64,000 bases of DNA from positions 62,001 through 126,000 of the forward strand of contig NC_014414.1 of the NCBI RefSeq assembly GCF_000152825.2. The letters are read 5' to 3'. Under the pieces are notes generated by a model that worked only from the letters and a program-made list of their open reading frames with translations, had not been told where the DNA came from and made no database searches. Below, piece by piece: positions 21,234 to 22,508 of the stretch (its first letter is position 1; each line of letters starts with the position of its first letter). Both the position numbers and the translations under genes were made by a program. Source of the stretch: Parvularcula bermudensis HTCC2503. Lineage in GTDB: Bacteria > Pseudomonadota > Alphaproteobacteria > Caulobacterales > Parvularculaceae.

Positions 21234-22508
21234 ATGTCTCAATCATCGATGTTCCCCGAAGCTGGGGCCGCCCCCCTGGCCTATGCCTCGTCCTTGGCCT
21301 TTGTGCCGACACGAGCGGCTGCCCTTGCGCGACTCGACGCCTTCGCACCCAATATGGGCAGTCTTTATGCGAAAAATCGGAACCGCGACGATGGACCTGC
21401 GGATCGACGCTACGTTTCCTGTCTGTCACCTTATCTTCGGCATCGGCTGATCACCGAGCAGGAGGTCATTGCCGCCGCTCTCAACCGGTTCGCCTTTTCC
21501 ACTGCGGAAAAGTTCATTCAGGAGGTCTATTGGAGGACTTATTTCAAGGGCTGGCTGGAGCGTCGCCCCTGGGTCTGGGATCTCTATACGGATGACCGAG
21601 ACCGCCGGCTTAATGAATTGAGCGGCGATCAAGCCACGGCCTATCAGGCGGCAGTCGAGGGCCGTACCGGCATTGACGGTTTCGATGCCTGGACAAAGGA
21701 ACTCATCGCCACCGGCTATTTGCACAATCACGCGCGGATGTGGTTCGCCAGTATCTGGATCTTTACCCTTCGCCTCCCTTGGAGTTTAGGCGCTGACTTC
21801 TTTCATCGGCATTTGCTTGACGGCGATGCCGCCTCCAATACCCTCTCCTGGCGATGGGTCGGCGGACTGCATACAAAGGGCAAAACCTATCTCGCCCGTC
21901 CAAGCAATATCGAGAAATTCACCAATGGGCGTTTCTCTCCGTCGCCGGAGGACCTCGCCAAGGAGGCCCCGGCCCTTGAGGATGATTGGAACGGTGAGCC
22001 TGGCGATCCGCCCGGCGACTTACCGCTGACGAGCCGCGACCCGGCTTTTTTGTTGCTGCATGAGGAGGATCTGGGATTGGAGACCCTTCCCGTGGAAAAG
22101 GCACGCCTTGTCGGGGTAGGCCTGTTCGTCGATCCGGCATGTCGCAGCGCGGCACCGGTGGGGGGTCTTGTGTCTCAATTCACCCAAGGCGCGATCGACG
22201 ATACGCGCCATCGGGCCAAAACGGTGGTTGGTTGCGATGCCGTCATTGTACCGGACGAGGACAATCTGCTGGAAGCGGTCACCGCCGCCGGCGCCAACAC
22301 CGTCATCCTGCCCTATCTGCCCGTAGGCCCATTAAGAGGTCCCGTAGCCAGAATGACAGGAAGGCTTGCCGCGGAGGGATTTCGCGTGGAGACGATGCTA
22401 CGGTCCCACGACCGCCATGCATGGCCCCACGCGTCAAAGGGCTTTTTTAGACTCAAGAAAAAGATCCCCTCACTGATCGCGCGAGAGCGAACGCCGTCCC
22501 TCCTCTGA
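21234..22508 (+). CDS. photolyase/cryptochrome-like FAD protein with apparently permuted domain order
   Basis: The first 240 residues resemble the photolyase FAD-binding helical domain: RLSPYLRHRLITEQEV-like start (LSPYLRHRLITEQEV), FIQEVYWRTYFKGWLE, RTGIDGFDAWTKELI, TGYLHNHARMWFAS and DGDAASNTLSWRW. The alpha/beta antenna domain that normally precedes this is absent. Residues about 265-424 instead read like that domain placed last: AFLLLHEEDLGLE (compare WFRRDLRLxDN), VGVGLFVDP, a helix then AAGANTVILPYLPVGP, and a closing HDRHAWPHASKGFFR. Standalone FAD-domain relatives exist in Rhodobacterales. Light-driven repair or signalling is inferred, not shown. The nearest upstream gene is divergent scoA. 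Confidence 0.75.
   Translation: MSQSSMFPEAGAAPLAYASSLAFVPTRAAALARLDAFAPNMGSLYAKNRNRDDGPADRRYVSCLSPYLRHRLITEQEVIAAALNRFAFSTAEKFIQEVYWRTYFKGWLERRPWVWDLYTDDRDRRLNELSGDQATAYQAAVEGRTGIDGFDAWTKELIATGYLHNHARMWFASIWIFTLRLPWSLGADFFHRHLLDGDAASNTLSWRWVGGLHTKGKTYLARPSNIEKFTNGRFSPSPEDLAKEAPALEDDWNGEPGDPPGDLPLTSRDPAFLLLHEEDLGLETLPVEKARLVGVGLFVDPACRSAAPVGGLVSQFTQGAIDDTRHRAKTVVGCDAVIVPDEDNLLEAVTAAGANTVILPYLPVGPLRGPVARMTGRLAAEGFRVETMLRSHDRHAWPHASKGFFRLKKKIPSLIARERTPSLL

Follow-up and report, generated by a model that had tools for sequence, protein, structure and literature searches.

A probable NewPHL-type photolyase of Parvularcula bermudensis in which a shortened antenna-type domain follows the FAD domain

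The window analysed here, a stretch of 64,000 nucleotides from the Parvularcula bermudensis HTCC2503 genome (a single contig of 2,902,643 bases), contains an open reading frame for 424 amino acids that starts with ATG, ends with TGA, and is best read as a gene for a photolyase of the NewPHL type. The gene and its parts are as follows:

21234..22508, + strand: putative NewPHL-type photolyase gene with its stop codon, encoding 424 aa (ORF call, relatives, AlphaFold2 model)
21288..22019, + strand: N-terminal catalytic FAD-binding domain with linker, about residues 19-262 (PF03441 match; VIA-align to 1iqr)
21522..21533, + strand: E97 and W100, matching E. coli E274 and W277 (1dnp alignment; 57/57)
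21726..21740, + strand: N165 and M169, matching E. coli N341 and M345 (1dnp alignment; 57/57)
21780..21782, + strand: W183, matching E. coli W359 (1dnp alignment; 57/57)
21837..21857, + strand: N202, W206 and W208, matching E. coli N378, W382 and W384 (1dnp alignment; 57/57 each)
22020..22505, + strand: antenna-type alpha/beta domain, about residues 263-424 (AlphaFold2 of this part alone, Foldseek, VIA-align, hhalign)
22407..22448, + strand: C-terminal HDRHAWPHASKGFF motif with most of the invariant C-terminal residues (D393, G403 and F405 invariant)

The neighbouring genes, as judged by eye from their translations, are metabolic, with CoA-transferase subunits upstream and a class II aldolase-like frame downstream, all on the minus strand. 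The comparison of 81 neighbourhoods (the window locus and those of 80 relatives) showed a canonical-antenna photolyase near the NewPHL-type gene in 13 loci and an FeS-BCP-like gene, recognized by eye, in eight, and neither was close by in the window. A canonical-order photolyase also lies close to a NewPHL gene at, for example, L156:1727-3307 and L157:2185-3792. A renalase-like flavin amine oxidoreductase was seen near NewPHL genes in eight of the 81 loci, and directly 3′ of two of the split gene pairs described below; genes of this kind are L046:4868-5932 and L153:4175-5290 (both PF01593), and L154:1953-2960 (by eye).

The relatives were drawn from 585 confirmed GTDB matches, the best 80 of which, with start codons assigned by a scripted rule, are 396-445 residues long and come, by title, from Alphaproteobacteria, Gammaproteobacteria, Actinomycetota and others. 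All 80 contain the C-terminal part, and one of them (L037) runs off the end of its contig. Two alignments were used, in which the window protein was joined by 56 or by 30 of the 80 relatives, while the C-terminal profile was built from 103 rows and the profile of the canonical antenna domain from 35. One further locus (L107, in genome G341) contains a NewPHL-like sequence split across frames, which is probably a decayed copy. Large secondary replicons also carry NewPHL-type genes, as eight plasmid records, including NZ_CP025613, NC_008043, NZ_CP058351, NC_014818 and four others, match 80% or more of the query at a single site; six of the eight annotate the near full-length match as "FAD-binding domain-containing protein."

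The data showed that the FAD domain comes first, as the earlier note had claimed from the sequence. PF03441 (FAD_binding_7) matched residues 94-220 with an E-value of 2.4e-22, which covers profile positions 1-127 of 203. The search of PDB sequences gave 46 rows up to an E-value of 1, and the best stretches of these lay within residues 9-261 and belonged to photolyases and cryptochromes, apart from a single row with an E-value of 0.74. For 1tez there was an additional, very weak alignment of residues 278-330 with antenna residues 16-67, which alone is not significant. In the structural comparison, residues 19-246 of the AlphaFold2 model matched 1iqr with a VIA-align Z of 15.8 over 210 residues (rmsd 2.8); such whole-model alignments to PDB entries extend over the FAD domain and say little about the remainder. 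Among the other structural matches, a chain from trypanosome mitoribosome assembly intermediates was similar to the FAD-domain part (7pub_Ff, Z 15.2) and to the antenna-type domain (7pua_Ff, Z 9.4), and hence this chain Ff looks photolyase-like.

To relate the FAD domain to known photolyase chemistry, eight residues of the E. coli enzyme were mapped through the 1dnp alignment, and identical counterparts were found for all eight in each of the 57 aligned sequences. Two of these residues, E. coli E274 and W277, are contacts of the cyclobutane pyrimidine dimer (CPD), W382 and W359 are the proximal and the second tryptophan of the electron-transfer dyad, and N378 lies near flavin N5. A tryptophan at the column of E. 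coli W306 was found in none of the 57 sequences. The call of a dyad depends on how the variable stretch of residues 118-143, around residue 128, is aligned, because 10 of the 57 sequences have a tryptophan somewhere in it. The invariance of the mapped residues and the absence of Trp from the W306 column lead to the prediction that the protein is a CPD photolyase whose electron-transfer chain is a Trp dyad. The four-cysteine Fe-S site is absent, as the window protein has only three cysteines, at positions 63, 303 and 334, and no cysteine column is filled in more than 27 of the 57 sequences.

The remainder of the protein was predicted to be a second folded domain. The AlphaFold2 model of the whole chain is a confident two-domain model (pLDDT 93.2, pTM 0.90), and residues 262-424 modelled alone gave similar values (pLDDT 91.8, pTM 0.85). 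The predicted order of elements in the C-terminal domain is β270-276, β291-298, α311-332, β336-338, α342-352, β356-360, α368-380 and β384-388. The sequence patterns which the earlier note had proposed as strands fall on predicted strands: FLLLHEEDL on 270-276, LVGVGLFVDP on 291-298 and NTVILPYLPVGP on 356-360. When the domain model was submitted to Foldseek, ranks 1-14 were all photolyases or cryptochromes, although only rank 1 (6lz7, E 8.1e-4) was below an E-value of 0.001. VIA-align matched the domain to 1np7 with a Z of 10.6 over 145 residues (rmsd 4.6) and to 8ijy with a Z of 10.2 over 117 residues (rmsd 2.7); many of the photolyase alignments have an rmsd of 4 to 5 and extend beyond the antenna domain in the matched structure. 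The best unrelated folds, universal stress protein and cyclic 2,3-diphosphoglycerate synthetase, reached a Z of 8.9, and thus the margin of the photolyase antenna over other Rossmann-like folds in these model comparisons is modest. The Foldseek ranks and the Z values up to 10.6 speak against an unrelated fold of this half, which the earlier note had named as a risk to its proposal, and the model indicates that the C-terminal half shares its fold with the N-terminal domain of photolyases. The AlphaFold2 model, Foldseek, VIA-align and hhalign support the reading that the chain ends in an antenna-type alpha/beta domain whose strands have retained their internal order.

The sequence comparison of this domain with the antenna domain gave fainter signals. 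No Pfam or NCBIfam family matched residues 259-424 over its cut-off (best E-values 0.17 and 0.22, respectively), and when 31 C-terminal members were scanned with Pfam, BLH_phosphatase was found in five (best E 8.3e-4) and DNA_photolyase in two (best E 0.0045). The search of PDB sequences with the C-terminal alignment profile returned ten rows, none of them a photolyase, and the best (E 0.003) was to ETV6 fusions over 25 residues. The Pfam antenna family PF00875 had no match over its curated cut-off in the window protein. In a profile comparison, hhalign aligned the NewPHL C-terminal profile to the 35 canonical antenna domains over 95 columns (score 31.3, probability 49%, E 1.7e-4). Without insertions the hhalign score was 28.6 (probability 31%). 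This value was reached by none of 200 column shuffles (maximum 21.1) and not by the reversed profile (13.7); with shuffled blocks of ten columns it was exceeded by at least one of 200 in a first run (maximum 32.9) and reached by none of 500 in a second (maximum 26.9). The direct link between the C-terminal and the canonical antenna profile is suggestive.

A stronger link was provided by a sister group of proteins that consist of the FAD domain only. In each of the 12 alphaproteobacterial genomes examined for this group (ten with E ≤1.2e-80 in one scan, and two from another) the 3′ end of the FAD-only gene is overlapped by a downstream frame of the same strand, which continues for 129-157 codons after the stop codon of that gene; 22 weaker rows of the first of these scans were counted as NewPHL by E-value and frame length. 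These downstream frames, which we call Phr5-like, lie at L153:3762-4280 and L154:2929-3432, and further in L155, L161-L165 and L167-L170. They usually end in an RFF-x-YWNK-like motif, for example RFFRYWNK, of which the HDRHAWPHASKGFF motif of the window protein is a possible counterpart in the profile alignment. With regard to the concern of the earlier note about homologs lacking the C-terminal half, none was found among the best 80 of the 585 relatives; the sister group does include chains without it, namely the FAD-only proteins.

The Phr5-like frames were first chosen by eye, and the significance of their relationship comes only from the profile-profile comparison of the 12. When the open frames of L153, L154 and L155 were searched with HMMs of the canonical antenna domain and of the NewPHL C-terminal domain, no significant match to the Phr5-like frames resulted (best E 0.7, in L154). 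Five of the 12 frames were scanned with Pfam, and no family exceeded its cut-off in these; PF00875 appeared below the cut-off in two of the five (E 0.013 and 0.1), where chance-like matches were equally large. In the hhalign comparison, the profile of the 12 frames matched the canonical antenna domain over 136 columns with a probability of 96% (E 5.2e-9) and the NewPHL C-terminal domain over 131 columns with a probability of 61% (score 32.0), and neither score was reached by any of 100 block shuffles. The bridge through the Phr5-like frames supports homology more strongly than the direct comparison, and at the sequence level the view that the C-terminal domain is a diverged and shortened homolog of the antenna domain is supported.

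The relationships of the FAD domains were compared in a tree of 44 sequences, which included 17 of 103 NewPHL-type, 16 of 35 canonical and nine of 12 FAD-only domains (L165, L168 and L169 being omitted), as well as two divergent neighbours. The NewPHL-type and FAD-only sequences each formed one group (support 100/98 and 98/97), and the 17 and nine rows stood together against the 18 canonical-order rows with support of 100/100; the tree is unrooted and samples none of the DASH, class II and FeS-BCP families. A cysteine cluster of the form C-x2-C-x5 to 7-C, which resembles part of the Fe-S site, is kept in three of the nine FAD-only rows of the tree (L155, L167 and L170) and is absent from L153, L154 and L161-L164.

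These data bear on the circular permutation proposed in the earlier note. The inversion of the domain order was borne out, but as a history gene fusion or fission is at least as likely as permutation, because in some relatives this order is spread over two frames that overlap. We see about an even chance that the FAD-first order goes back to the joining of a FAD-only gene to the stand-alone antenna-type gene that followed it, an event separate from the fusion that gave the canonical order. This history agrees with the two overlapping frames in the sister group, present in 12 of 12 genomes, and with the description of Phr6 as fused Phr4 and Phr5 in two Cyanobium strains in the available text of PMC9426592. 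On the other hand, the split state could be the derived one, and the tree is unrooted and lacks the DASH, class II and FeS-BCP families. A broader proposal can be put forward tentatively, at slightly less than even odds: the FAD-only "short photolyases" would be two-gene enzymes with an overlapping downstream gene for an antenna-type partner, which would be homologous to the canonical antenna domain as well as to the NewPHL C-terminal domain. In the NewPHLs this pair would be fused, and photolyases would owe their two domain orders to two separate fusions rather than to a permutation.

It is less likely that a canonical antenna-FAD photolyase underwent true circular permutation, through tandem duplication and trimming, and that the split pairs are later fissions. 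Such a history would fit a C-terminal domain that is homologous, in unchanged internal order, to the N-terminal domain of canonical photolyases, but the fusion of adjacent genes explains the split sister group more simply, and the searches, which had other aims, met no tandem or half-permuted intermediate. A literature search for photolyase and circular permutation gave no permuted photolyase as judged by titles and the beginnings of abstracts.

It is improbable that the C-terminal part is instead an unrelated Rossmann-like domain which caps the FAD pocket and resembles the antenna by convergence of fold. Such convergence could be suggested by the universal stress protein and cyclic 2,3-diphosphoglycerate synthetase folds, whose Z is within 2 of that of the best photolyase, by the lack of a Pfam family over cut-off for this half, and by the failure of the antenna and NewPHL C-terminal HMMs to match the Phr5-like frames significantly. 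However, the first 14 Foldseek ranks are all photolyases or cryptochromes, and the Phr5-like profile links both domains with scores that none of 100 shuffles reached.

Regarding function, we consider it about 90% probable that the gene encodes a NewPHL, a CPD photolyase driven by blue/UV-A light in which the FAD domain precedes a shortened antenna-type domain. In this enzyme FAD would be photoreduced via the two-tryptophan chain of W206 and W183, and the dimer, held in a pocket lined by E97, W100, N165, M169 and W208, would be cleaved by an electron that FADH− supplies. The C-terminal domain would probably pack on the FAD domain and close its pocket rather than harvest light, and the likely substrate would be CPDs in single-stranded DNA. 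In NewPHLs the C-terminal domain has been reported to seal the FAD pocket. The domain order, the predicted fold, the homology and the residue conservation come from the present data; the FAD binding, the light dependence and the specificity for CPDs and single-stranded DNA are ascribed to the window protein by analogy with the NewPHLs, as far as the available texts describe them. The reading of the protein as a light sensor (cryptochrome) and not a repair enzyme is very improbable, since, even though several FAD-domain matches are plant cryptochromes, the mapped CPD-contact residues are invariant and the characterised NewPHLs are reported in the available text of PMC13274461 and PMC9426592 to repair CPDs.

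Also encoded in the same genome are a photolyase of canonical order (482 aa) and one of the PF04244 type (522 aa); at E 1e-85 the genome gave no match to DASH. NewPHL has been suggested as a substitute for DASH. DASH occurred in none of 23 NewPHL-bearing genomes (best E <1e-70) versus 34 of 398 genomes overall (P 0.12), a comparison which is confounded because all 23 belong to the class of the window's genome and none of the 34 does.

When the window protein is compared with known systems, DASH is similar in having a related FAD domain and a reported niche in CPDs of single-stranded DNA. In DASH the antenna domain comes first. A DASH assignment was rejected, as the window protein scored 71.6 bits with TIGR02765, for which the cut-off is 317.05. 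The class I CPD photolyases (1iqr, 1dnp) share the fold of the FAD domain and the CPD active site, but they carry the antenna N-terminal to the FAD domain, an arrangement that the window protein lacks, and their FAD domain is longer at its C-terminal end. The class I enzymes also have the full Trp triad.

A closer relationship is seen with the short photolyases (SPL) and with Phr4 and Phr5, as the FAD domain groups with the NewPHL-type and an antenna-type domain follows it; there, however, this domain is encoded by an overlapping frame of its own, whereas in the window protein it is in the same chain, and an SPL has no alpha/beta domain in its chain. By domain content and order, the FAD-only proteins probably correspond to SPL or Phr4, and the overlapping frames to Phr5. 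According to PMC9649867, Xu et al. (2021) proposed that short photolyases represent an ancestral minimal form with a single domain. If they are generally paired with an antenna-type partner, this idea needs revision, and photolyases would be a case of two domains joined in both orders. The remaining interest lies in the split relatives and in the origin of the two domain orders.

The closest likeness is to NewPHL. The statement of the earlier note that all known photolyases have the antenna first does not hold, as the available texts describe NewPHLs with "inverted domain topology" (PMC13274461, with reference to Emmerich et al. 2020), Phr7 with an N-terminal FAD domain and a C-terminal Z-domain, and Phr4 and Phr5 of marine Synechococcus together with Phr6, which are also FAD-first, in reverse order (PMC9426592). 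In the same partial sources, Phr7 is without the four-cysteine Fe-S site (PMC9426592), the Dinoroseobacter shibae NewPHL has a "mere Trp dyad" (PMC8948257), and an asparagine near flavin N5 is conserved in NewPHL (PMC12083526). The window protein correspondingly has, in one chain, an N-terminal FAD domain followed by a short C-terminal second domain, it has no four-cysteine Fe-S site, and both the dyad (W206 and W183) and the flavin asparagine (N202) are present in 57 of 57 sequences. NewPHLs are reported from Alphaproteobacteria, for example Dinoroseobacter and Methylobacterium, and the window protein is likewise alphaproteobacterial. No difference from NewPHL was found when the known members, for which the accessions A8LJA9, M7YZC8, Q2N8F4 and B6IPR5 are given (PMC13274461), were compared by their available descriptions. 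By these four features NewPHL is the best reading of the window protein, and as the FAD-first architecture was, according to those texts, already published under this name in 2020, the protein is a further example of it.
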